Assembly: GCA_030524545.1 (NCBI GenBank)
Contig: JAUNGM010000035.1
Coordinates: 1 to 41,244 of the forward strand
DNA from: Eubacteriales bacterium
GTDB taxonomy: Bacteria > Bacillota > Clostridia > Lachnospirales > Lachnospiraceae
Direction: 5' to 3'
DNA length: 41,244 bases
Under the pieces are notes generated by a model. It saw only the letters and a program-made list of their open reading frames with translations, had not been told where the DNA came from and searched no databases. Below are positions 1,383 through 35,876 of this stretch, piece by piece. Both the position numbers and the translations under genes were made by a program. Positions within the stretch are counted from its first letter, which is position 1. Each line of letters opens with the position of its first letter.

Positions 1383-1409
1383 TTAGCACTCCACTGAACT
1401 GAGTGCTAA
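1383..1409 (+). promoter_or_regulatory. CIRCE operator (HrcA binding site)
   Basis: TTAGCACTC (1383-1391), nine spacer bases, GAGTGCTAA (1401-1409). This is the full CIRCE consensus with no mismatch. HrcA, encoded directly downstream, is the known repressor of this site and is activated by GroEL in characterised Firmicutes, so the operon is predicted to be autoregulated and heat induced. Confidence 0.97.
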
Positions 1410-1435
1410 CAAATCGGACAGAAAGGAGCGGAGAC

Positions 1436-2479
1436 ATGGAAGAAATGCTGAATGACCGTAAGAAGAAGATCCTGAAGGCCATCATTAAAACTTATATGGA
1501 AACAGGTGAGCCGGTTGGTTCCAGAACGATTTCCAAGTATACGGATTTGAACGTCAGCTCAGCAACGATCCGCAATGAGATGTCCGACCTGACAGACCTG
1601 GGATATATCGTCCAGCCCCATACATCGGCAGGAAGAATCCCCTCTGACAAGGGTTATCGCCTTTATGTAGACGAACTGATGAAGGAGAAAGAGAGCGAGG
1701 TAGCAGAACTCCGTGAACTGGTGCTTGAGAAGACCGGTAAGATGGAGAAGGTGCTGAAGCAGGCAGCGAAGCTGCTGGCAACGAATACCAATTATGCTAC
1801 AATGATTTCCGTACCCCAATACAGCGGAAGCCGCCTGAAATTTATCCAGTTGTCCAGAGTCAGTGAACTGCAGCTTGTGGCTGTGGTGGTTTGTGAGAAC
1901 AATGTCATCCGGAATCAGATCATCAATCTGGAAGATGAGATGGATGACGAGACGATCCTGAAACTGAATCTTCTTTTGAATACCAATCTGAACGGTCTTC
2001 CCATCCAGGATATCAACCTTGGAATGATCGCAAGACTGAAGGAACAGGCGGGGATTCACAGCGGTGTGGTTGCTACCGTTCTCGACGCGGTTGCAGCAAC
2101 GATACACGTAGATGAAGAAGATCTGGAAATATATACGTCAGGTGCTACGAATCTTTTCAAATATCCGGAGCTTTCGGATAAGAGCAAGGCTACGGAGCTG
2201 ATTTCCACCTTTGAGGAGAAACAGCAGCTTGCGGATCTGGTGAAAGAACGGCTTGCTGATGCCGATAATACCGGAATTCAGGTATATATCGGGGATGAAT
2301 CTCCGATTAAGACGATGAAGGACTGCAGCGTAGTGACTGCCACATATGAACTGGGCGAAGGGATGACCGGTACTATCGGAATCATCGGACCGAAACGAAT
2401 GGATTACGAAAACGTCGTAGATAACCTGAAAACCCTCAAAGTCGAGTTGGATAAGATATTCAGAAAAAAGCTTGAATAA
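1436..2479 (+). CDS. hrcA: Heat-inducible transcription repressor HrcA
   Basis: 347 residues, the usual length. The N-terminus carries the winged-helix DNA-binding region (RKKKILKAIIKTYMETGEPV, then SSATIRNEM and QPHTSAGRIPSDKGYRLYVD, which are family hallmarks), followed by the GAF-like dimerisation domain. The frame could be opened at a GTG at 1403, but that codon lies inside the CIRCE operator. The ATG at 1436 has an AGGAG seven bases upstream (1424-1428), so it is chosen. First gene of the operon hrcA-grpE-dnaK-dnaJ; represses its own transcription through the CIRCE site. Confidence 0.96.
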   Translation: MEEMLNDRKKKILKAIIKTYMETGEPVGSRTISKYTDLNVSSATIRNEMSDLTDLGYIVQPHTSAGRIPSDKGYRLYVDELMKEKESEVAELRELVLEKTGKMEKVLKQAAKLLATNTNYATMISVPQYSGSRLKFIQLSRVSELQLVAVVVCENNVIRNQIINLEDEMDDETILKLNLLLNTNLNGLPIQDINLGMIARLKEQAGIHSGVVATVLDAVAATIHVDEEDLEIYTSGATNLFKYPELSDKSKATELISTFEEKQQLADLVKERLADADNTGIQVYIGDESPIKTMKDCSVVTATYELGEGMTGTIGIIGPKRMDYENVVDNLKTLKVELDKIFRKKLE

Positions 2480-2500
2480 AAGAAAGGCGGTAGAAAAAGC

Positions 2501-3166
2501 GTGTCAGAAGAAAATAAAAACACATCTGAAGTGCAGGAAGAAGTAAAAGCTTCTCCGGAAACAGAACCCGCAGCGGAAGAGGGATATTCAGAAGCGGCGG
2601 AAACCTCCGCAGAGGCACCTGAGAAAGCCGCAGATGAGGCTGAAGCCGATTCGGAAGAAACCGTTTCGGATACTCCGGAAGGCACACAGGAGCCAAAAGC
2701 CAAAACTTCTTTCTTCGGCAAAAAGAAAAAAGAAAAGGACAAATTTGAGCAGCAGATTGAAGAATTGACAGACCGTCTCAAACGGAACATGGCTGAGTTC
2801 GATAATTTCCGTAAACGTACTGAAAAAGAAAAGGCAAGCATGTATGTGATCGGTGCGAGAGAAATCGTTGAAAAGATTCTTCCGGTTGTGGATAACTTTG
2901 AGAGAGGCCTTGTACAGGCACCCGAGGGTGATGCGTTTGCGGACGGAATGAAGATGATCTATAAACAGTTTATGACAACCCTGGATGACCTGGGAGTGAA
3001 ACCGATTGAAGCTGTCGGAAAAGAATTTGATCCGAACTTCCACAATGCCGTGATGCATGTGGATGATGAATCCGTTGGTGAGAACGTTGTAGTGGAAGAA
3101 CTGCAGAAAGGCTACACCTATAAGGATTTCGTGGTTCGTCACAGCATGGTAAAGGTAGCAAACTGA
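2501..3166 (+). CDS. grpE: Nucleotide exchange factor GrpE
   Basis: 221 residues beginning at GTG, 21 bp after hrcA, with an AGGCGG about ten bases upstream. The first 75 residues are a low-complexity Glu/Ala/Ser-rich acidic tail ending in a basic KKKKEKDK patch. Then come the long coiled-coil helix with RNMAEFDNFRKRTEKEK and the C-terminal beta-wing (GKEFDPNFHNAVMHV, GYTYKDFVVRHSMVKVA), both GrpE signatures. It releases ADP from DnaK. The acidic leader is longer than in many homologues but typical of Clostridia. Confidence 0.95.
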   Translation: MSEENKNTSEVQEEVKASPETEPAAEEGYSEAAETSAEAPEKAADEAEADSEETVSDTPEGTQEPKAKTSFFGKKKKEKDKFEQQIEELTDRLKRNMAEFDNFRKRTEKEKASMYVIGAREIVEKILPVVDNFERGLVQAPEGDAFADGMKMIYKQFMTTLDDLGVKPIEAVGKEFDPNFHNAVMHVDDESVGENVVVEELQKGYTYKDFVVRHSMVKVAN

Positions 3167-3168
3167 CC

Positions 3169-3207
3169 TAGAACACTTAACGAAATCAAGCCGAAGGCGC
3201 AGATTGA
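3169..3207 (+). repeat. Direct repeat copy 1 between grpE and dnaK
   Basis: A 39-base sequence starting TAGAACACTTAACGAAATC that recurs at 3289-3327 with one difference (C at 3200, T at 3320). It begins three bases after the grpE stop codon. Copies lie exactly 120 bases apart. Confidence 0.9.
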
Positions 3208-3288
3208 GTTTAGTGAGAAGGTCGTTCGAAGGAACTTAATGAGTCCGACCGTAAGGGAAGGACGAATTTAGTGAATCGAACTTCTTTG
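3206..3288 (+). repeat. Degenerate repeat units between the two exact copies
   Basis: The stretch between the two 39-base copies holds related short motifs: GAGTTTAGTGAG (3206-3217), GAACTTAATGAG (3232-3243) and GAATTTAGTGAA (3264-3275), each 26-32 bases apart. They share GARYTTARYGAR with GAACACTTAACGAA at the head of the exact copies. The whole intergenic block thus looks like a decayed array of roughly 25-35-base units. No ORF or U-tailed terminator is seen here. Confidence 0.6.
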
Positions 3289-3327
3289 TAGAACACTTAA
3301 CGAAATCAAGCCGAAGGCGTAGATTGA
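3289..3327 (+). repeat. Direct repeat copy 2 between grpE and dnaK
   Basis: Second copy of the 39-base repeat, 38 of 39 positions identical to 3169-3207. It ends 34 bases before the dnaK Shine-Dalgarno sequence, so it lies in the dnaK leader of any operon transcript. Confidence 0.9.
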
Positions 3328-3376
3328 TGAGAACTATTTATTTTTTTATAGAAATGATGATAGGAGGAAATTTATC

Positions 3377-5251
3377 ATGGGAAAAATCATTGGTATTGAC
3401 TTAGGAACAACAAACAGCTGTGTAGCTGTTATGGAAGGCGGACAGCCGACCGTTATCGCAAATACAGAAGGAGCAAGAACTACACCGTCCGTAGTGGCAT
3501 TCACAAAGACAGGCGACCGTCTGGTAGGTGAGCCGGCAAAACGTCAGGCAGTTACCAACGCAGAAAAAACAATCTCTTCTATTAAAAGAGAAATGGGTAC
3601 CGATTACCGCGTAACTATTGATGACAAAAAATACTCTCCGCAGGAAATCTCTGCAATGATTCTGCAGAAGCTGAAAAAAGACGCAGAGGGATATCTTGGA
3701 GAAACAGTTACAGAAGCAGTTATCACCGTACCTGCATACTTTAATGACGCACAGCGTCAGGCAACCAAGGATGCCGGCAAGATTGCAGGCCTTGATGTAA
3801 AACGTATCATCAACGAGCCTACCGCAGCAGCACTTGCATATGGACTTGATAACGAAAAAGAGCAGAAGATCATGGTATATGACCTTGGCGGCGGTACATT
3901 CGATGTTTCCATCATTGAGATTGGTGACGGCGTAATCGAAGTACTTTCCACAGCTGGTAACAACCGTCTCGGCGGTGATGACTTTGACCAGAAGATTACA
4001 GACTGGATGCTTTCCGAATTCAAGAAAGCAGAAGGTGTTGACCTGAGCAACGATAAGATGGCACTTCAGAGATTAAAAGAAGCTGCTGAAAAAGCGAAAA
4101 AAGAGCTTTCCGCTGCAACCACAACAAATATTAACCTTCCGTTCATCACTGCAACCGCAGAAGGCCCGAAGCACTTTGACATGAACCTTACAAGAGCAAA
4201 ATTTGATGAATTGACACATGACCTTGTAGAGAAGACTGCTGAGCCGGTTCGTCGTGCACTGTCTGATGCAGGAATCACCGCATCTGAACTTGGCCAGGTA
4301 CTTTTGGTAGGCGGTTCCACACGTATCCCGGCCGTACAGGATAAGGTTCGCCAGCTTACAGGCAAAGAGCCGAGCAAATCTCTGAATCCGGATGAATGTG
4401 TTGCACTTGGTGCTTCCGTACAGGGTGGCAAACTTGCAGGCGATGCAGGCGCAGGGGATATCCTTCTTCTGGATGTTACTCCGCTGTCCCTGTCTATTGA
4501 GACCATGGGAGGAATTGCAACCCGTCTGATCGAAAGAAATACCACGATTCCGACTAAGAAGAGCCAGATCTTCTCCACAGCAGCAGACAATCAGACCGCT
4601 GTAGACATCAATGTTGTACAGGGTGAGCGCCAGTTTGCAAGAGACAACAAATCCTTAGGCCAGTTCCGTCTGGATGGAATTCCGCCGGCACGCCGTGGTG
4701 TTCCGCAGATCGAAGTAACCTTTGATATTGATGCAAACGGTATCGTAAATGTATCTGCAAAAGATCTGGGAACAGGCAAAGAGCAGCATATTACAATTAC
4801 CGCAGGCTCCAACATGTCTGATGACGAAATCGATAAGGCAGTAAAAGAAGCTGCTGAATTTGAAGCTCAGGATAAGAAACGTAAAGAAGCAATCGATACC
4901 AGAAACAATGCCGATTCCATGGTATTCCAGGTTGAGAATGCAATGAAAGAAGCCGGGGACAAACTGGATGCAGGCGACAAGGCAGCTGTAGAGGCAGACC
5001 TGAACGCACTGAAGGATCTGCTGTCCCAGACAACAAACGTGGAAGAGATGACAGACTCTCAGGTAGCTGAGATTAAGGCTGCACAGGAGAAGATGATGGA
5101 AAGTGCTCAGAACCTCTTCTCTAAGATGTATGAGCAGGCTCAGCAGGCAGGAGCCGGCCCGGATATGAACATGGGCGGCGGTGCTTCCCAGGGCGGAAAT
5201 GAAGCAGGCTACGGCGATGATGTTGTAGATGCTGATTATAAAGAAGTCTAA
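3377..5251 (+). CDS. dnaK: Chaperone protein DnaK (Hsp70)
   Basis: 624 residues. Start ATG has AGGAGG nine bases upstream (3362-3367). Canonical motifs in order: phosphate-1 [10 protein letters not shown], the linker-strand [16 protein letters not shown], connect-1 [13 protein letters not shown], phosphate-2 [13 protein letters not shown], adenosine motif [11 protein letters not shown], the beta substrate-binding domain ending VSAKDLGTG, the helical lid, and the [11 protein letters not shown] tail. ATP-driven folding chaperone working with the GrpE and DnaJ encoded on either side. Lacks the extra segment of proteobacterial DnaK, as expected for Firmicutes. Only the hrcA promoter is evident upstream. 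Confidence 0.98.
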
Positions 5252-5280
5252 GACGATAATTGATATAGGAAAGAATAATT

Positions 5281-6465
5281 ATGGCTGATAAAAGAGATTA
5301 CTATGAAGTCCTCGGCGTGAGCAAGACCGCTGATGACGCTGAGCTGAAAAAAGCATATCGTAAATTGGCCAAGAAATATCACCCGGATGTAAATCCGGGT
5401 GATAAAGATGCAGAAGCAAAATTTAAAGAAGCTACGGAAGCATACACCATTTTAAGTGATCCGGATAAAAGAAAGCAGTACGACCAGTTCGGCCATGCGG
5501 CTTTTGAAAACGGCGGCGGTGGAGCCGGCGGCTTTGGCGGTTTTGACTTCAGCGGTGCTGATATGGGAGACATTTTCGGCGATATCTTTGGCGATTTATT
5601 TGGTGGCGGCGGAAGTAGAAGACGTGCAAACAACGGTCCTATGAAAGGTGCCAATCTTCGTGCGCGTGTCAATATTACCTTCGAGGAAGCTGTATTCGGC
5701 TGTGAGAAGGAACTGGAGATTATGCTGAAGGACGAATGCACCACTTGTCATGGAACAGGGGCCAAACCGGGTACACAGCCTGTAACATGTCCGAAATGTA
5801 ATGGAGAGGGACAGATCGTTTACACCCAGCAGTCTATGTTCGGAATGGTGCGGAATGTTCAGACATGTCCGGAATGTCATGGATCAGGGAAGGTAATTAA
5901 GGAGAAATGTACTTCCTGCCGCGGCACCGGATATACCTCCTCCAGGAAAAAGATTCAGGTTTCCGTACCGGCGGGAATTGATAACGGCCAGAGCATCCGT
6001 ATCCGCGAAAAGGGTGAGCCCGGTACCAACGGCGGCCCGAGAGGTGATCTGCTGGTAGAGGTAAATGTAGCACGCCATCCGATTTTCCAGAGACAGGATA
6101 TGAATATCTTTTCCACCGCACCTCTTACCTATGCACAGGCTGCATTGGGCGGTACCGTACGCATCAGTACGGTAGACGGAGATGTGGAATATGATGTGAA
6201 GCCGGGTACCCAGACCGATACCCGTATCCGTCTGAAAGGCAAGGGCGTTCCGTCTCTGCGGAATAAGAATGTCCGCGGCGATCACTACGTTACATTGGTA
6301 GTGCAGGTACCTACCAATCTGAACAGTGAAGCAAAAGAGGCTCTGCGCAGATTTGATGAAGCCTGCGGCAATACGCAGTCAGGCACTCAGGGCTCCTCTT
6401 CTGAAAAAGGCGAGAAGAAGAAAAAGAGTTTCATGGACAAATTAAAAGAAACTTTTGAAGAATAA
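5281..6465 (+). CDS. dnaJ: Chaperone protein DnaJ (Hsp40, type I)
   Basis: 394 residues with all type I parts: J domain (about 5-70, with the HPD triad in KKYHPDVNP that triggers DnaK ATPase), Gly/Phe-rich linker (about 76-115), four CxxCxGxG zinc repeats ([32 protein letters not shown]), and the C-terminal peptide-binding beta domains. The last 25 residues are lysine and serine rich. Starts 29 bp after dnaK with only a weak AGGA site. Last gene of the heat-shock operon, closed by a terminator. Confidence 0.97.
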
Positions 6466-20233: not shown

Positions 20234-20272
20234 CAAAGGTGTAGTGCAAATCCAATTTTGAGAGGGATAACT

Positions 20273-22195
20273 ATGAATTTCACGCTTACGATAGAAGTAA
20301 TTGCCGCGATGATCATCGTGCTTCTGGTGATATACAGTTTGGATGAAAAGAGTGCGAGGAATACAAGAACCCGGTCATACCGCTGCTGTCTTTATGTTTC
20401 TCTGGCTGCAATTGCTGCGGATGCGTTGTCTGTATGGGGAATACGTCATATTATGGAAATACCCGTATGGGTGAATGTCGCTATTTCCAGCCTGAATTAT
20501 CTGTTGGTCAATTTTAATTCCGCAGTGCTTGCTTTGTATCTTTCCGGTCAGATTTTTGAACATTTTCCCAAACATCATTATAAAAAGAAAATCTTTGCTG
20601 TGATTGCAGCAATGTATGGGATTGTGGCTCTGGCAGTTGTGGGCAATCTTTTCAGCGGCTGTCTGTTCGGGTTTGAAAACGGACAGTATGTGCGCGGGCC
20701 GCTGAATCTTTTGGGCTATGCTGTTTTGATAAGCTATGTGGCTCTGGTTGGAATTTCCTATCTGGTAAACAGTAAGATTGCAAGTGCGTCCATGAGAAAC
20801 GCGATGCGTACTATGCCGTACGTGGTATGCGGGGTGGTGATGCTTCAGCTATTATACAGAAATGTAATGATGAACGGAATGGTTGCGGCACTGGTGGATC
20901 TGATTCTTTTTCTGAGCTTTCAGAGCAGCCGTAACAGCGCGGATTATCTGACAAACCTGGGAAACAGAGGTGCTTTTGTAGAAGAGCTTGCTGTTTGGAC
21001 GAGAAGAAAGAGAAGATTTCATGTCGTGCTGCTGAGCCTGAATAAGTTTGGGAGTGTGAACCGGGAATTCGGGCAGAAGAACGGAGATGAGTTTTTATAT
21101 GCAGTTGCCAGATATCTGGATAATTTTTCTGCAAATGCAAGAGCTTATCGTCTGGGAAGCCTGGAATTTGCGCTGCTGTGTCCGGAAGAAGACTGCCGTA
21201 GGATTGGCCACTGTATTGAAATTATACGGGAACGGTTTACCAGGCCCTGGGAAATCGGAGATATGGAATACCGGCTTTCCGTGTCCTTTGCAGATATTTT
21301 GTGGAACGGGCAGGATTGGGATGGAACACAGATCATTGAACGTCTGGAATATGCCATGATACAGGCCAAGGCAAAAGGCAGCAATGGATGGGTGCACTTT
21401 GATGAACGGCTTAATGAGATGATGGAACATCAGAAACATATGATCGAACAGATGAGGGAAGCAATCGCAAATGAGAATTTTGCTGTCTATTATCAGCCGA
21501 TTTATTGCTGGGGCGTGGATCTTTTCTGTTCGGCGGAAGCGCTGGTCCGCATGATCGACAAGGACGGCAGGATCGTTTTGCCCAATGAGTTCATTCCCCT
21601 TGGGGAGACAACTGGCCTTATCAAGGAGATCAGTTGGATCATTGTGGAAAAAGTATGTGCTTTCATGGCTTCACATCCGAATCTTGGGCTGAAAGGGATT
21701 ACCATCAATATGTCCATGCAGCAGTTTATGGATGCTGAGATGGAACATATTCTGGATAAAATTGTCCGGAAATATGGAATAGATTACCATGTCCTGAAAA
21801 TTGAAATTACAGAGAGGATTGTTTCTGAAGATCCTGAGAAAGCCAAAAAGATCATGGAATCGCTTACGCAGAAAGGCGTATGCTTTTATCTGGATGACTT
21901 TGGCACGGGTTATTCCAATTTTTCCGTTGTGCTTTCCCTGCCGTTTGATACGATTAAATTGGACAAATCACTGACGGATAAAGTATTGGGGACGGAGAAA
22001 GAGCGGGAGATCGTTGGATCTATTGTGGAAATGTTTGTGAAAGCCGGCTACAGTATCGTGGCGGAAGGCGCAGAAACAGAACAAATGGTGGAAGAACTGA
22101 AAAAGCTGCATGTGGACAGGATACAGGGATATTACTATTCCAGGCCGCTTCCGGATGCGGAATTTGTAAAATTTATGCGGAACAAGAAGGATTGA
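20273..22195 (+). CDS. Membrane c-di-GMP phosphodiesterase: degenerate GGDEF plus EAL
   Basis: 640 residues. About seven hydrophobic segments in the first 215 residues form a membrane sensor. Then a GGDEF-type domain (about 220-375) whose active site reads RLGSLEF instead of RxGGDEF, so cyclase activity is not expected. The EAL domain (about 395-635) is complete: SAEALVRM, NMSMQQF, EITERI, DDFGTGYSNF, IKLDKS, EGAET and QGYYYSRPLP, the residues that bind metal and c-di-GMP. Predicted to hydrolyse c-di-GMP to pGpG, perhaps with the GGDEF part as a GTP sensor. Start ATG 20273 has AGAGGG six bases upstream. A GGDEF gene follows after three bases. Confidence 0.9.
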   Translation: MNFTLTIEVIAAMIIVLLVIYSLDEKSARNTRTRSYRCCLYVSLAAIAADALSVWGIRHIMEIPVWVNVAISSLNYLLVNFNSAVLALYLSGQIFEHFPKHHYKKKIFAVIAAMYGIVALAVVGNLFSGCLFGFENGQYVRGPLNLLGYAVLISYVALVGISYLVNSKIASASMRNAMRTMPYVVCGVVMLQLLYRNVMMNGMVAALVDLILFLSFQSSRNSADYLTNLGNRGAFVEELAVWTRRKRRFHVVLLSLNKFGSVNREFGQKNGDEFLYAVARYLDNFSANARAYRLGSLEFALLCPEEDCRRIGHCIEIIRERFTRPWEIGDMEYRLSVSFADILWNGQDWDGTQIIERLEYAMIQAKAKGSNGWVHFDERLNEMMEHQKHMIEQMREAIANENFAVYYQPIYCWGVDLFCSAEALVRMIDKDGRIVLPNEFIPLGETTGLIKEISWIIVEKVCAFMASHPNLGLKGITINMSMQQFMDAEMEHILDKIVRKYGIDYHVLKIEITERIVSEDPEKAKKIMESLTQKGVCFYLDDFGTGYSNFSVVLSLPFDTIKLDKSLTDKVLGTEKEREIVGSIVEMFVKAGYSIVAEGAETEQMVEELKKLHVDRIQGYYYSRPLPDAEFVKFMRNKKD

Positions 22196-30191: not shown

Positions 30192-30220
30192 TTGCACTGA
30201 AGCTGTTTGTGGTGTATAAT
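30192..30220 (+). promoter_or_regulatory. Strong promoter of the DUF5717-DUF5716-TPR unit
   Basis: TTGCAC (30192-30197), 17-bp spacer, consensus TATAAT (30215-30220). It lies 57 bases before the TTG start of the first gene and shows the unit is a separate, probably housekeeping transcription unit. Confidence 0.85.
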
Positions 30221-30276
30221 CACTAAATGAGTACAGTCGAACTAAGAAAGAATATTGAACGATAAGGTGAACGATT

Positions 30277-33200
30277 TTGAAGAAAAAGATTGAGCAATTG
30301 TTAAACGGAAAATTTGAATATGAAAATCCGGTTCTTTTGTTTTCCCGGGAAAAGATTGAAGTCACATTAAAATCCGGAGAAACTCTGAGAGGGGAACTGC
30401 ATTTTGGAACAGAAAAGAATGAGAGGATTCGCGGGTATATCACTTCCTCAAACAGAAGAGTTGTAGCCGGAATGCGGAAATTCCAGGGAACAACGATCTG
30501 CCTGCCCTACGGAATCGATGCTGTCGGAATGCAGCCGGGAGAATCACTCGACGGATGGCTCTGCTTTACCACAAACATTGGAGAGTACAAGCTCCCCTTT
30601 CATATTGAGACAGAGAAAGAGGAAATCCGGAGCTCCATAGGAGAGGTGCTGAATATAGAATCCTTCCGGGAAATCGCAGAGAGAAATTTCCGTGAAGCAT
30701 ACCGTCTTTTTAAAGATAAATCATTTCCTATGGTAATGTCCGGGAAGTCGCAAAGAGAAAAAGCTCTGTATGCAGGTCTCTCCGTGCAGCCGGTGACTTA
30801 TCAGCATCTGGAAGAGTTTCTGATAGGAATGGAACAGAAGCAGCCGGTATCTGTCTCCCTGAAGCAGTCAGGGGGAGAGTTTTATGAGATACGGGAATCC
30901 ATGCAGGAATCTTTTGAGATCCATAAGAACGGATGGGGACATTTGCGTCTGGATATTGAAGCCAGAGGAGATTTTCTGGAGGTGGAACGCCATGTGATCA
31001 CAGACGAGGAGTTTATCGGAAGCAGCTATCGTGTGGAATATCTGATCCGCAGGGATAAGCTGGGAGATGGTCATCAATTCGGCGAGATTATTGTGAAAAG
31101 TCCGTATCAGAAACTGGTATATCCGGTGGTGGTATCGAAAGGCGCAAAACCATCCGTAGATATCAGCGTCATAGAGAAGCACCACAGGATTTCCCTGATC
31201 CGGGATTATCTGGAATACCGCAGCGGAAAAATGGATTTCAAAACCTGGGCAGCCAGTGCGCATTTTGAGTTGAACCAGCTTCAGGAGGCTGGCTGTGATT
31301 ATCCGGAATATCAGATGATGGAAGCTTATCTGCTCCATAAAGAAGGATCCAATGATGCCGCCATAGAAATTTTAAAGAGATACAAAAATAAATCCTATAC
31401 CCGGGACGACCTGGAGTTTGCAGGTATTTACCTGTATCTGTGCAGTCTTACCGGAATTTATAAGGACAATGTGCAGGCGCTTCGCAAGATTCAGAATTTT
31501 TATATGCAGAAAGAGGACAGTATGGTGCTGCTCTGGCTGCAGCTTCAGATGGATGGCTCCTTCCGTCACACACCTTCTAAAGCAGTCTTTCTGATGGAAG
31601 AACAGTTTGATCGCGGATGCAGAAGTCCGCTGCTCTATCTGGAAGCATGGAGGTATATCAGCGGGGATATGACACTGCTCCACAGAATCAGCAGATTCTG
31701 GGTACAGGTATTCCTTTATGCAGGCAAAGCCGGCCTTCTGACAGAGGAGCTGGTCATGCGTTTGTCCTATCTGTCAGGATATGAGAAAAACTTTAACAGA
31801 AGTCTTTACAGGGCTTTGGCAATGGGATATGAAGCATTTCCGACGGATGATACTTTGGAGGCCATCTGCAAATATATTATCAGGGAAAACCCAAGAAAAC
31901 CGGAATACTTCCGGTGGTTTTCTCTTGCAGTGGAGCATGGACTCAGAATTACGAGACTTTACGAATATTATGTGGAGACTTTAGACACCTCTTATCAGAG
32001 AGAACTGCCGAAAACGCTTCTTATGTATTTTACATACAATGACAATACCCTTGGAGATTCCAGAAAGGCATATCTCTATGCCAATGTCATTGCATATAAA
32101 GAGAAAGAACCCGGAACCTACGAGAACTACCGGGAAAATATACGAAGCTTTGCCATGCAGAAGCTGAAAGAAGGACGGATGAACGAGAATTATGCAGCTC
32201 TTTATCAGGAGTTCTGTATGAATCCGTCCAATGCCCAGGAAGCTTCAGCCGCTGCCAAAATGATGTTTACCTGCCGCCTTTACTGTGATGATCCCAAGAT
32301 CCGCCAGGTGATCGTGCGTCATAATCAGATGGCAAGGGAAGAAATCTATCCGTGTGTGCAGGGAGTGGCGTATCCAAGGATTTATACGGAGGATGCGGCG
32401 ATTCTGTTCCAGGATGAGAAGCAGCGCAGATATGCGGCTACGGTAGACTACAATGTAACCGGGATGATGGATGAACGGGAGCTCCTTCCAAAAGTGCTGG
32501 AGTATGGTGCAACAGAACCGGGAATTTTGCTTCATTATTGTGAAAACACTGCGCTTAGCCGGGATAATCTGGAAGTTTTCCAGCTGCTTGCGCAGTCAGA
32601 CTTCTATACGGAAACCTATCGTAGCTCCATCCGCAAAAAGATTTTGGATTATTATGCGGAACATGTGCAGGGGGAAGACCTGGATGGCTATCTGAAGAAG
32701 ATGGATTTTCGGGAATATGCCCTTGTGGACCGCAGGACACTTCTCGAGGTACTGATCTCCAGACGATTTTTTGAAGAGGCTATGGAGATCGTGGAGGAGT
32801 TTGGGTATGAAGGAGTAGATCTGGGAAGCCTGCTTAAACTTACCAGCAGGATGATTCTCGGCTGTGAGATGGCAGAAAATGAAGAACTGCTGGCTTTGGC
32901 AGCAGAGGTATATCGTTCCGGAAAATATGATGAAGTGATCCTTCATTATCTGATGAAGTACCGTTTCGGACCTATGGATGATCTGTTTGCTATCTGGAAG
33001 AGCGCCGTTGGATTTGAAATGGATACCTACGACCTGGAAGAGAAGATTCTGGAACTTTTGATGTTTACTTCCGATTACCGCAAAGAGGGAGAAAATGTTC
33101 TTGCGGCTTATGTAAAGCAGGCAGGCAGGGAGCGTATGATCGGGGCCTATCTGACCCAGGTGTCGTACGGTGTATTTGTGAAGGAATATTCCATGAGCAG

Positions 33201-33834
33201 CTTTATACGGGAATGCCTGGAAAATGCTTATGAACACAGATGGCCGGTGAACCGCATCTGCCATATGGCTCTTTTAAAAGCATTATCCAAAGAAAAGTCC
33301 GCGAAGAACAGGCATGTGGAAATGCAGAGGGAGCTTCTTGGGGAATGTGCGAAGGACGGTATGGTATTTGCTTTCTTCCGCAGGCTTTCTCCGGAACTGT
33401 TAAGTCCCTATCAGTTGGATGACAAGACTTATGTGGAATATCATACACACCCCGAGGCAAAAGTAACGCTGTTTTATGCTCTGGATGCAGGGCTTGGCAT
33501 TGAGAAGGAATATAAAAGCGAACCGCTGAAAAATATGTATGAAGGTATTTTTACAAAGACGTTTACACTGTTTTATGGAGAGTCGCTTCATTACTATTTC
33601 CAGGTAGAAAAGGACGGCAGGATTTATAAGACTTCCGAGAGGGTAATTACGATGAATCGGGTGGACGGCACGCCGATGAGCAAATACCAGCTCCTCAACC
33701 AGATGCTTTCTGCAAGGCGGCTGGACAAAGAGCAGGAAGTAGCGGCAAGGCTGAAGCAGTATCTTCGTCAGGAACAGTATGTGAAGGAAATGTTTACAAT
33801 AGAAAAGGAACGGTCAGATGAACGAAATTCGTGA
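30277..33834 (+). CDS. DUF5717 family protein: beta-sandwich domains and helical repeats
   Basis: 1185 residues from TTG at 30277 (AAGGTGA six bases upstream). I recognise it as DUF5717, a family I know mainly from Lachnospiraceae; function unknown. No signal peptide or membrane helix is evident, so it is likely cytosolic. Parts: an Ig-like beta domain (about 15-115, with RGYITSSNRRVV, QGTTICLPYGID, TNIGEYKLPFHIE), a second beta domain (about 200-285), a long all-helical TPR-like region (about 300-1020, with motifs such as HKEGSNDAAIEILKRYK), and a C-terminal beta domain (about 1035-1145, ending in KTSERVITM). Looks like a large scaffold. Its end overlaps the next gene by 17 bases, so the two are translationally coupled. 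Confidence 0.8.
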   Translation: MKKKIEQLLNGKFEYENPVLLFSREKIEVTLKSGETLRGELHFGTEKNERIRGYITSSNRRVVAGMRKFQGTTICLPYGIDAVGMQPGESLDGWLCFTTNIGEYKLPFHIETEKEEIRSSIGEVLNIESFREIAERNFREAYRLFKDKSFPMVMSGKSQREKALYAGLSVQPVTYQHLEEFLIGMEQKQPVSVSLKQSGGEFYEIRESMQESFEIHKNGWGHLRLDIEARGDFLEVERHVITDEEFIGSSYRVEYLIRRDKLGDGHQFGEIIVKSPYQKLVYPVVVSKGAKPSVDISVIEKHHRISLIRDYLEYRSGKMDFKTWAASAHFELNQLQEAGCDYPEYQMMEAYLLHKEGSNDAAIEILKRYKNKSYTRDDLEFAGIYLYLCSLTGIYKDNVQALRKIQNFYMQKEDSMVLLWLQLQMDGSFRHTPSKAVFLMEEQFDRGCRSPLLYLEAWRYISGDMTLLHRISRFWVQVFLYAGKAGLLTEELVMRLSYLSGYEKNFNRSLYRALAMGYEAFPTDDTLEAICKYIIRENPRKPEYFRWFSLAVEHGLRITRLYEYYVETLDTSYQRELPKTLLMYFTYNDNTLGDSRKAYLYANVIAYKEKEPGTYENYRENIRSFAMQKLKEGRMNENYAALYQEFCMNPSNAQEASAAAKMMFTCRLYCDDPKIRQVIVRHNQMAREEIYPCVQGVAYPRIYTEDAAILFQDEKQRRYAATVDYNVTGMMDERELLPKVLEYGATEPGILLHYCENTALSRDNLEVFQLLAQSDFYTETYRSSIRKKILDYYAEHVQGEDLDGYLKKMDFREYALVDRRTLLEVLISRRFFEEAMEIVEEFGYEGVDLGSLLKLTSRMILGCEMAENEELLALAAEVYRSGKYDEVILHYLMKYRFGPMDDLFAIWKSAVGFEMDTYDLEEKILELLMFTSDYRKEGENVLAAYVKQAGRERMIGAYLTQVSYGVFVKEYSMSSFIRECLENAYEHRWPVNRICHMALLKALSKEKSAKNRHVEMQRELLGECAKDGMVFAFFRRLSPELLSPYQLDDKTYVEYHTHPEAKVTLFYALDAGLGIEKEYKSEPLKNMYEGIFTKTFTLFYGESLHYYFQVEKDGRIYKTSERVITMNRVDGTPMSKYQLLNQMLSARRLDKEQEVAARLKQYLRQEQYVKEMFTIEKERSDERNS

Positions 33835-35065
33835 CTTGATGATTGGAATTGATTTTGGGAAAAGGTATTCCCAGATTTGTTATTATGACAGGAAGGCGGA
33901 GGAGGCGCGTTCCATCAGCATGAAGGTGGGAAGCAGCCAGTATGAAGCCCCCACCTGTCTCTGCAGGAGAATGGAACAGGGAGATTACTGTGTAGGTCTG
34001 GAGGCAGAATATTTTGCAAGGGAAAAGGGCGGAATCATGCTGGATGACCTGTACGGGATTTCAGAGAGTACCGGTCCTGTACAGGTGGCAGAAGAGGAAA
34101 AGCAGCCGTGGGAGCTGCTGGCCCTGTTCCTGAAAGGAATGCTGAAGTTTTTGGGAATTCTGGACATTGTAAAAAACACCAAATGTATGGTGATCACATG
34201 CCCGTCCCTTACCTCGGAACAGGTTTTGAATTTTCAGAAAGCATGCAAAAGCCTTGGTTTTCCGGAAGAAAAATATATGCTTCTGGATTATGGCGAAAGT
34301 TTCTATTATTATATGCTTTCACAGAAAAGGGATACGTGGAACAGGAATGTGGCGTGGTATGCATTTTCTCCGGAGAAGGTGGTATTTCGTCGGATGTCCA
34401 TGTCCTCCGCATCCCGGCCGGTTCTGGTGAGAATTGGGGAGCCTGCGGAGGCAGAATTGAGCGAAGGCGGTGAAAGCCGGGATTCCGACTTCTGCAGATT
34501 TGTCCAGCAGACGCTTGGGAATGAGCTTTATTCCAGTATCCAGATCACGGGCATTGGATTTGACCCGGAATGGGCAAAACAGTCCGTAAAGATGCTCTGT
34601 TACCAGAAGCGAAAAGTATTTTACGGCAACAACCTGTTTGCAAAAGGAGCCTGTGCGGCTGCTGTGGAACGTCTGGAAAAGAAGAGCCTGAAAGGATACC
34701 GTTATATGAGCGAATCTCTGGTTCTGGCAGATGTGGGAATGGAGATGCGTGTGATGGGGTCTCCTGCATATTACCCGCTGATCGAGGCAGGAAGTAACTG
34801 GTATGACTGCAAAACCCGGTACGAGCTTCTGCTGGATCAGATGGAAGAACTGGTATTTACCGTAGCTACCATGGACAACCCGGAAAAGCGCCGTGTAGCC
34901 ATGAGTCTTCCGGGCCTGCCGAATCGGCCGAACAAGACAACACGTCTTGAGGTGGAGTTGAGCTATAAATCCCCGAAGGAATGCTGTATCACAGTGAAGG
35001 ACTTAGGATTTGGGGAAATGTTTCCAAGCAGCGGCAAGGTCTGGAAAGAAACAGCCCAGTGGTAG
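33818..35065 (+). CDS. DUF5716 family, degenerate Hsp70/actin-like protein
   Basis: 415 residues. By eye it follows DnaK of this window from end to end: MIGIDFGKRYSQICYYD against [30 protein letters not shown] against [29 protein letters not shown] against [26 protein letters not shown] against [26 protein letters not shown] against [13 protein letters not shown]; and LEVELSYKSPKECCITVKDLGFGE against [23 protein letters not shown]. The phosphate-2 motif DLGGGTFD is replaced by YAFSPEKVVF and GG of the adenosine motif is lost, so ATP turnover is doubtful. The helical lid is absent. Starts inside the DUF5717 gene. Family name from memory; the Hsp70 relation is my reading of the sequence. Confidence 0.8.
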   Translation: MNEIRDLMIGIDFGKRYSQICYYDRKAEEARSISMKVGSSQYEAPTCLCRRMEQGDYCVGLEAEYFAREKGGIMLDDLYGISESTGPVQVAEEEKQPWELLALFLKGMLKFLGILDIVKNTKCMVITCPSLTSEQVLNFQKACKSLGFPEEKYMLLDYGESFYYYMLSQKRDTWNRNVAWYAFSPEKVVFRRMSMSSASRPVLVRIGEPAEAELSEGGESRDSDFCRFVQQTLGNELYSSIQITGIGFDPEWAKQSVKMLCYQKRKVFYGNNLFAKGACAAAVERLEKKSLKGYRYMSESLVLADVGMEMRVMGSPAYYPLIEAGSNWYDCKTRYELLLDQMEELVFTVATMDNPEKRRVAMSLPGLPNRPNKTTRLEVELSYKSPKECCITVKDLGFGEMFPSSGKVWKETAQW

Positions 35066-35076
35066 GAGGAAGCAGC

Positions 35077-35859
35077 ATGAGCGGATATATTTTATGTCAG
35101 ACAAAGAAAGCAGATACGCCGTATTTTATCGAGAATATCAGCACGAATATCTATACCATTGAGGAATTGTGCTATTATCTTTATCATAATCTGTATCTGG
35201 TTGACGACACCATTATTAATGAAGGCCTGTGTACCTGGATCCAGGAAGAACTCGGACTTCCCAAGCTGGCGGCGAAGCTTCGGCCGAATCTCGGGAAATA
35301 TGCCAGTGCGGAGGATGTCCTGTATCCGATTTTTAAGGAAATTAATTACCTTACCTATGAGGAACTTCGGATCCTGAACGGACAGATGAAGAAGCTGGAT
35401 GCAGAGCCTGCGGCCGTACGTGAAAAGCAAAAAGGGGATGCATTGGTGGAAAACAGGATGTATGTCACTGCCATCCATGTATACCAGAAGCTTTTGGAGC
35501 GTGAGGATCTGGAAATCGCCAGGGAAGGTATTACTGAGAGTGTATATCATAATCTGGGCTGTGCCTACAGCTACCTGTTTCAGATGGAAAAAGCAGTGGA
35601 ATGCTTCTTAAAAGCCTATGAGCAGAAGCAGAGCAAAGAAGCGCTGAAGTGCTATCTGCTGGCTTACCGCAGTATTCGGACGCCGATTGAATATGAAAGC
35701 AGGCTTACGGAACTTCAGACAGGAGAGGATGTGCGTCAGGAAATTAAGGAAGCGCTGGATCACTTTGCAAAGAGCCCGGAGAAACAGGTCTATTCCCAGC
35801 ATATTGACAGTCTTTTGGAACAACTGACCAGAGAATATCATCGCAGCACCGGTTCATGA
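35077..35859 (+). CDS. TPR-containing protein, third gene of the Hsp70-like unit
   Basis: 260 residues, no signal peptide or membrane helix. Start ATG 35077 has AGGAGG seven bases upstream (35064-35069), which overlaps the DUF5716 stop; a longer reading from 34981 would run through that gene and is not used. The first 110 residues are mixed (YILCQTKKADTPYFIENIS, then a helical region). About 120-230 form TPR-like helix pairs: GDALVENRMYVTAIHVYQKLL and YHNLGCAYSYLFQMEKAVECF with the usual A, L and Y spacing. TPR proteins commonly bind chaperones, which fits the neighbouring Hsp70-like gene. Family not otherwise recognised. Confidence 0.75.
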   Translation: MSGYILCQTKKADTPYFIENISTNIYTIEELCYYLYHNLYLVDDTIINEGLCTWIQEELGLPKLAAKLRPNLGKYASAEDVLYPIFKEINYLTYEELRILNGQMKKLDAEPAAVREKQKGDALVENRMYVTAIHVYQKLLEREDLEIAREGITESVYHNLGCAYSYLFQMEKAVECFLKAYEQKQSKEALKCYLLAYRSIRTPIEYESRLTELQTGEDVRQEIKEALDHFAKSPEKQVYSQHIDSLLEQLTREYHRSTGS

Positions 35860-35876
35860 CGAGCCGGTGTTGTTTT
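35845..35876 (+). terminator. Terminator of the Hsp70-like unit
   Basis: CACCGGTTC (35847-35855) pairs with GAGCCGGTG (35861-35869), one G-T pair, followed by TTGTTTT. The stop codon of the TPR gene lies in the loop. Confidence 0.8.

Follow-up and report, generated by a model that had tools for sequence, protein, structure and literature searches.

Three kinds of described system bear on the locus considered here, a three-gene unit at positions 30192..35876 of contig JAUNGM010000035.1 (assembly GCA_030524545.1) from a bacterium of the family Lachnospiraceae; the 41,244 nt of this contig, analysed as a whole, are referred to below as the window. The unit encodes, in order, a DUF5717 protein, a DUF5716 protein and a TPR protein. 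The systems closest to it are the Hsp70s of the HscA/DnaK type together with GrpE, the MoxR-VWA chaperone pairs, of which RavA-ViaA is one, and the GTPase-centred GAP1-N2 systems. For the last of these, the pertinent sections of Kaur et al. (2020, PMC7159879) describe the co-occurrence of HSP70, GrpE, an HSP70 lacking the peptide-binding domain and an FNIII-DnaJ/TPR fusion, and place this HSP70/GrpE set in firmicutes and actinobacteria. The window proteins themselves score far above the cut-offs of the Pfam families PF18984, PF18983 and PF18980, whose short descriptions carry neither a function nor a link to Hsp70. A full-text literature search, with subscription papers and preprints outside its scope, found no function for DUF5717 or DUF5716, the single paper retrieved for these names being one on cancer, and no description of the short unit or of the longer machine treated below.

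The unit is read here as the reduced, Lachnospiraceae form of a dedicated multi-Hsp70 operon carried by other families of the same order, and its product as an ATP-independent, Hsp70-derived scaffold or holdase that may sometimes be tethered to the membrane (probability about 0.6). The longer operon and the pseudo-Hsp70 origin of DUF5716 were worked out in the present analysis by comparing sequences. Set beside the HscA/DnaK type, DUF5716 is homologous over its length to one of the operon's Hsp70s (Hsp70-B), and the longer operon has its own GrpE domain; DUF5716 differs, however, in lacking the ATPase motifs, subdomain IIB and the lid, and 15 of 15 family genomes lack the GrpE-like gene. The MoxR-VWA pairs suggest an analogy for a further protein of the longer operon, Hsp70-VWA, which would likewise join a chaperone ATPase to VWA, in one polypeptide in the other families, but with Hsp70 in place of the AAA+ ATPase; it is found in none of 150 Lachnospiraceae genomes. 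The GAP1-N2 systems, to the extent that the cited sections describe them, have in common with the loci compared here an HSP70 accompanied by GrpE, a further HSP70 in reduced form, TPR repeats and, as a theme, VWA domains. Their core consists of a GTPase and GAP1, neither of which turned up among the operon-type proteins that were scanned, and the present loci differ further in their several Hsp70 paralogues, in the Hsp70-VWA fusion and in being mostly single-copy and near-universal in the family. The pairing of HSP70 with GrpE seen in those systems is present in the longer operon and absent from the window's unit.

The three-gene unit and the longer operon

The genes lie where the earlier note had placed them, the first two overlapping by 17 bases and the third following after a gap of 11:

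30277..33834, + strand: DUF5717 protein, 1185 residues, proposed scaffold (Pfam PF18984 and PF18983; TTG start)
33818..35065, + strand: DUF5716 protein, pseudo-Hsp70, 415 residues (PF18980, E 4.9e-101; profile match to Hsp70-B)
35077..35859, + strand: TPR protein, 260 residues, with a family-specific N-terminal domain (TPR_8 at residues 156-184; profile match to a longer orthologue)

Pfam recognises the first as DUF5717_N (8.8e-267) and DUF5717 (1.3e-98), at 887.8 and 330.4 bits against a cut-off of 25, and the second as DUF5716_C, at 338 bits against 34.7; TPR_8 (8.3e-6) stands barely above its cut-off in the third. In the list of open reading frames (ORFs) the TPR gene extends to 292 residues from an upstream ATG; the start at 35077 is preferred because the alignment of relatives begins MSGYILC.

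That the three genes form one conserved unit in Lachnospiraceae is supported by a survey of 150 genomes, one per genus, the family being identified as Lachnospiraceae through 22 named relatives, most of which are Blautia. DUF5716 and DUF5717 are each present in 145 of the 150, and 144 genomes have both; DUF5717 is the immediate upstream neighbour of DUF5716, on the same strand, in 141 of the 144, and the remaining 3 have the two on separate contigs (second fragments of DUF5716 in G385 and of DUF5717 in G270, G299 and G337 were omitted from the count). The outcome that the earlier note named as refuting it, the families living mostly apart, is thus not what is seen inside Lachnospiraceae. The unit is mostly single copy, and PF18980 is narrowly distributed: across the phylum it is found in 4 of 249 genomes, all 4 of them Lachnospiraceae. 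In the 20 family loci that were mapped, a separate TPR gene comes next in 18, the one in L095 being recognisable by profile only, and DUF5716 and TPR are a single ORF in 2. Three further genera with the fused polypeptide were confirmed, 5 in total, which argues for physical contact between the two proteins. On a tree of DUF5717 the 5 fused rows require two changes, likewise when starred branches alone are counted, which points to two origins of the fusion. All three genes appear to be under purifying selection: pairwise dN/dS (the ratio of nonsynonymous to synonymous divergence) against three relatives is 0.04-0.10, and 0.07-0.08 for the DUF5717 gene, at a dS near saturation. Some of the commonest bacteria of the human gut are Lachnospiraceae; a locus so strongly constrained, with each DUF in 145 of 150 genera and with no function given for it in the literature searched, marks a gap in the core biology of the family.

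Outside Lachnospiraceae but inside the order, DUF5716_C is found in 56 of 131 genomes, and 48 of the 56 have two or three matching rows, which mostly fall in ORFs next to each other. Operon maps were drawn for twenty of these loci. Sixteen have, on one strand and in this order, genes for DUF5717, Hsp70-A, a GrpE-like protein, a DUF5716-like protein, Hsp70-B, Hsp70-VWA and the TPR protein, with small extra ORFs interspersed in some; L070 has the full set, but with a short GrpE-like gene and with split Hsp70-VWA and TPR frames, and L065, L071 and L077 are partial. The N-terminal part of DUF5717 is a separate protein in 11 of the 17 other-family loci that have DUF5717. In locus L066 the three Hsp70s match Pfam HSP70 at 9.5e-71 (Hsp70-A), 7.2e-59 (Hsp70-B) and 3e-92 (Hsp70-VWA), the last with VWA_4 (1.1e-11) located where the lid would be; GrpE (4.4e-7) occupies the C-terminal third of the GrpE-like protein, and the DUF5716-like protein matches both DUF5716_C (1.1e-16) and HSP70 (5.5e-12). 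The combination of an Hsp70-VWA fusion with an operon-borne GrpE is unusual in its own right. As a separate observation, the Hsp70-VWA protein (L066:10887-12974; alignment A7, 16 sequences, the other 15 being 61-95% identical to it) has an apparently intact DxTxS motif (DTTGSM).

The TPR proteins of the short and long forms match over 176 columns (Prob 99.5, E 2.3e-23), the family-specific N-terminal domain included, the orthologue of other families having ~390 residues against 260 in the window. DUF5717 had been described as a beta-sandwich and helical-repeat protein. Its helical repeats receive slight support from one orthologue with a sub-threshold TPR_2 match (8.3e-5); for the beta-sandwich, neither Pfam nor PDB profiles identify the N-terminal fold. 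Among 27 members, Pfam gave DUF5717_N 27 times, DUF7356 three times and 13 other families once each, none of them convincing, and the PDB profile search returned 0 rows for alignment A5 and, for A8, a single row with an E of 0.088.

What Lachnospiraceae have lost was surveyed in 146 genomes of the order, 15 of Lachnospiraceae and 131 of other families. DUF5717 (E up to 0.001) is present in 75, namely 15 of 15 Lachnospiraceae and 60 of 131 others. The GrpE-like model matches 60 of the 146, all of them outside Lachnospiraceae, where 59 genomes carry it together with DUF5717; it matches 0 of the 15 Lachnospiraceae genomes. It also matches 0 of 196 genomes of the class, a sample that contains no known positive, the positives coming from the order survey. 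Hsp70-VWA, at a threshold of 1e-150, is found in 0 of the 150 Lachnospiraceae genomes, a sample likewise holding no known positive; as a control, a 17-row Hsp70-VWA profile (16 rows shared) scores 1044 and 1083 bits on two outside proteins from other families. None of the loci mapped, 20 of the family and 21 of the named relatives (the short locus L004 being excluded), contains Hsp70-A or Hsp70-B, the genome-wide search not having been made. The Lachnospiraceae locus is accordingly one that keeps what are predicted to be the non-catalytic parts only: DUF5717, the pseudo-Hsp70 and TPR. A separate case in another family is G411 (locus L110), which has a two-part DUF5717 and a DUF5716-like protein; the GrpE-like model finds nothing in this genome, and the stretch fetched contains none of Hsp70-A, -B and -VWA. 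It is possibly a second, independent reduction.

In part of the family a fourth gene belongs to the picture. Some loci, of the short form as well as the long, have a gene for a coiled-coil protein after TPR; of 10 such downstream proteins, hydropathy predicts two adjacent membrane segments in 9 and a single long one in the other. A model of this protein finds matches in 65 of the 150 family genomes, in 63 of them within 2.5 kb downstream of DUF5716, and none in the window's genome. Pfam yields nothing above cut-off for the members in L080 and L086, and the best PDB rows for the protein come from keratin coiled coils (E 0.0004), MreC reaching no better than E 0.47. The protein at L094:11598-12782 and its 9 relatives are uncharacterised coiled coils with long flanks on both sides of the predicted adjacent membrane segments. 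Calling the unit self-contained, as had been done, is misleading both because other families of the order have the orthologous genes in a longer operon, together with a GrpE-domain protein and three Hsp70s whose motifs are intact in the five rows examined, and because this downstream gene is kept in 63 of 150 family genera.

Hsp70 features of DUF5716

A profile of 18 family DUF5716 sequences matches Hsp70-B over 408 columns (Prob 99.7, E 5.9e-27), and the alignment takes in the beta domain and reaches a DLGFG..PSSG-type motif near the C terminus. The match to Hsp70-VWA is confined to ~200 N-terminal columns with the broad profile A13 (Prob 96.4); the shallow, Blautia-only profile A3 gives Prob 70.5, E 3.9e-5. 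By sequence, the window's DUF5716 retrieves 0 rows from PDB at E up to 10. The Hsp70 relationship proposed by the earlier note is real on the evidence of the profile match and of the tree described below; the working Hsp70 with a TPR co-chaperone is what the loss of ATPase motifs and subdomain IIB speaks against. These losses were read from an alignment (A4) of 29 chosen rows: 14 family DUF5716, 9 DUF5716-like proteins of other families, 5 Hsp70-A/B/VWA and the window's DnaK. The corresponding sites in the window are:

33845..33883, + strand: codons of the phosphate-1 remnant, GIDFGKRYSQICY, where the compared Hsp70 rows have GID[LF]GTT[NH]S (placed by alignment columns)
34355..34396, + strand: codons at the phosphate-2 position, which reads WYAFSPEKVVFRRM, compared with DnaK (placed by alignment columns)
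34454..34483, + strand: approximate site of the missing subdomain IIB, dependent on alignment A4
35000..35035, + strand: codons of the C-terminal motif, DLGFGEMFPSSG, of a type seen in Hsp70-B too, for example DLGFGDMYPPSG in L064

In place of the Hsp70 phosphate loops GTTNS and DLGGGT, DUF5716 has GIDFGKRYSQ and YAFSPEK. Across all 23 DUF5716 and DUF5716-like rows GGGT is missing and the Glu-Pro of connect-1 is broken, L063 keeping the Glu and L085 the Pro. The catalytic lysine, which we take to be K70 in DnaK numbering, is found in none of the 23 (L086 and L088 have a gap there); in the window's protein the position of SSIKREMG is changed, and the connect-1 position, without its Glu-Pro, reads LDYGESFYYYML. 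GGGT, Glu-Pro and the lysine are all present in the 5 Hsp70-A/B/VWA rows and in the window's DnaK.

Subdomain IIB, which in Hsp70s contacts nucleotide and GrpE, is represented in the window's DUF5716 by 1 residue and in the 14 family rows by 1-24, as against 64-71 in the 9 DUF5716-like rows of other families and 67-84 in the six Hsp70 rows. Since the DUF5716-like rows combine decayed motifs with a retained stretch for this lobe, motif decay probably came first and the loss of IIB later. The substrate-binding beta domain appears to have been kept, and DUF5716 ends after it, with no alpha-helical lid. Long-operon relatives, a decayed pseudo-Hsp70 that still has IIB, and a family locus with non-catalytic parts together amount to a natural experiment in the reduction of an Hsp70 machine.

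Descent, function and competing explanations

The direction of change is drawn from two trees. In a tree of 98 Hsp70-type rows, Hsp70-A, Hsp70-B and Hsp70-VWA each form one group, and so do the 24 DUF5716 rows of the family (support 82), with L070 beside them (99). The tree is midpoint-rooted and has many long branches; it omits 17 of the 20 DUF5716 rows of named relatives, and Hsp70-VWA and fused DUF5716 sequences were cut at 500 and 430 residues, respectively. In the DUF5717 tree, built from 31 of 59 clustered rows plus 3 new ones, L070 again stands beside Lachnospiraceae (100/99), and the genome of L070 (G400) carries the long operon. Gene neighbourhoods also recur on both sides: the genes after the operon are those for valine-tRNA ligase and FolC in L078, of another family, as in L089 and L084, of Lachnospiraceae, and before it several loci, short and long alike, have a HisC/CobD-like gene (outside L069, L078 and L089 the neighbours were identified through BLAST clusters). 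The reverse direction, with the short unit ancestral, is disfavoured because IIB and the motifs are present in the Hsp70 rows and the long-operon lineages branch first from the Hsp70 side of the tree.

Orthology, losses from the locus, motif decay, the missing IIB, the fusions and purifying selection are established at the level of sequence; a mechanism built on them is conditional. An ancestral long operon would have lost, from the Lachnospiraceae locus, its three Hsp70s with intact motifs and its GrpE. DUF5716 would no longer run an ATP/GrpE cycle and would have become a fixed binding or scaffold subunit, acting through the retained substrate-binding beta domain with TPR attached; DUF5717 and the TPR protein would be a frame around it, and the two-helix protein, where present, would tether the complex to the membrane. 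The task, then, might be the holding or assembly of a client near the membrane without ATP. The stronger scenario, in which an ATP-driven machine of several Hsp70s with its own GrpE lost its motors in the ancestor of Lachnospiraceae and became a permanent nucleotide-independent scaffold or holdase, at times tethered to the membrane, while relatives retained the full machine with its Hsp70-VWA, is offered tentatively, at slightly less than even odds.

Several facts weigh against the reduction and the ATP-independent function proposed. The long branches affect both the Hsp70 and the DUF5717 trees. GID and GxGF survive in DUF5716, so that ATP cycling is unlikely yet nucleotide binding is still allowed. 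Hsp70s besides DnaK, untyped, are present in many family genomes (among the matches listed for a sample of 60). In f113, another family, 11 of 14 genomes have DUF5717 and the GrpE-like gene at separate places, 10 of them with the two on different contigs (some perhaps contig breaks) and one, G465, with the two 45 kb apart, so that a single operon is not required; G401, G422 and G465 are examples in which both genes are present but apart. The membrane protein is missing from the window's genome and from most of Lachnospiraceae, so tethering cannot be general. Finally, G277, G339 and G346, Lachnospiraceae genomes that are 93-99% complete, have neither DUF5716 nor DUF5717, and the unit must be dispensable in some lineages; these three genomes are useful for asking what its role is.

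Of the alternatives, an actin-like envelope scaffold in the style of FtsA, MreB or PilM accounts for some of the same facts: DUF5716 would bind the two-helix protein as PilM binds PilN, and DUF5717 and TPR would build the assembly. Hsp70s and actins share a fold, subdomain IIB has been lost, the predicted membrane coiled-coil gene is directly downstream in 63 of 150 genera, and the DUF5716-like protein of L066 matches MamK, though weakly (E 7e-4, 18.7 bits against a cut-off of 400). To our knowledge, however, actins have no substrate-binding beta domain, and it is through this domain, to the C-terminal motif, that the Hsp70-B match runs; the window's DUF5716 gives no FtsA, PilM or MreB match at E up to 1, and the membrane protein finds keratin well ahead of MreC. 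An actin-like role is, on balance, unlikely.

Much less probable is the model from which this work started, a functional, self-contained chaperone of the Hsp70 kind that would run on ATP, with the TPR protein as co-chaperone and a helical protein as scaffold. Its Hsp70 ancestry is genuine, its TPR partner is fused to it in 5 genera, and the genome's own DnaK, HrcA, GrpE and DnaJ could in principle assist; but the catalytic lysine, Glu-Pro and GGGT are missing in 14 of 14 family rows, IIB is nearly gone, and the operon's GrpE-like gene is missing in 15 of 15 family genomes.

A comparably slight chance attaches to a domesticated conflict or defence machine, thematically near the GAP1-N2 systems. 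The set of components described in the cited sections of PMC7159879 resembles the long operon's Hsp70s, GrpE, TPR and VWA, and the PADLOC candidate PDC-M61B matches the three L066 Hsp70s (best 2.3e-8), in the Hsp70 part. Against this, no GTPase or GAP1 is found among the ten operon-type proteins scanned, PADLOC, at a threshold of 0.01, recognises neither the window's three proteins nor either DUF5717 part, the GrpE-like protein or the membrane protein, and the locus, mostly single-copy, adjacent and near-universal, is unlike a mobile, variable conflict system.

A sporulation-specific complex is hardly credible and largely refuted by counts: Lachnospirales include many spore formers and SpoIVA matches 103 of 150 family genomes (the G310 match lying below cut-off), but 45 of the 47 without a SpoIVA match keep DUF5716, which is why sporulation is unlikely as the task, and 3 of the 5 without DUF5716 have SpoIVA.

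Expression signals and neighbouring genes

Two further features border the unit:

30192..30220, + strand: promoter-like element, TTGCAC, 17 bases, TATAAT (read directly; kept in only one, L013, of four aligned relatives)
35843..35873, + strand: intrinsic-terminator-like hairpin of 13 pairs, overlapping the TPR stop codon

The first had been called a consensus promoter. Its -10 hexamer is perfect; its -35, TTGCAC, matches consensus at just 3 of 6 positions, which is why the promoter scan does not list it. Promoter-like sites in the region number 6 against a shuffle mean of 10.4, so that there is no excess, and among the four near relatives aligned the element recurs in L013 and not in L002, L003 or L018. 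At the terminator a hairpin exists, with the longest stem among the sites listed (12 hairpin sites found against 6.3 expected), and has no counterpart in the four aligned relatives. Nor does the packing of the genes carry the fixed stoichiometry that had been drawn from it: the 17-base overlap is not conserved and ORF spacings vary among loci, and the overlap is thus no demonstration of stoichiometry.

Elsewhere in the window, positions 1403-6465, about 24 kb upstream of the unit, hold a canonical hrcA-grpE-dnaK-dnaJ cluster, a separate and ordinary heat-shock operon, and positions 20258-22195 encode a GGDEF-EAL protein, probably a cyclic-di-GMP enzyme.

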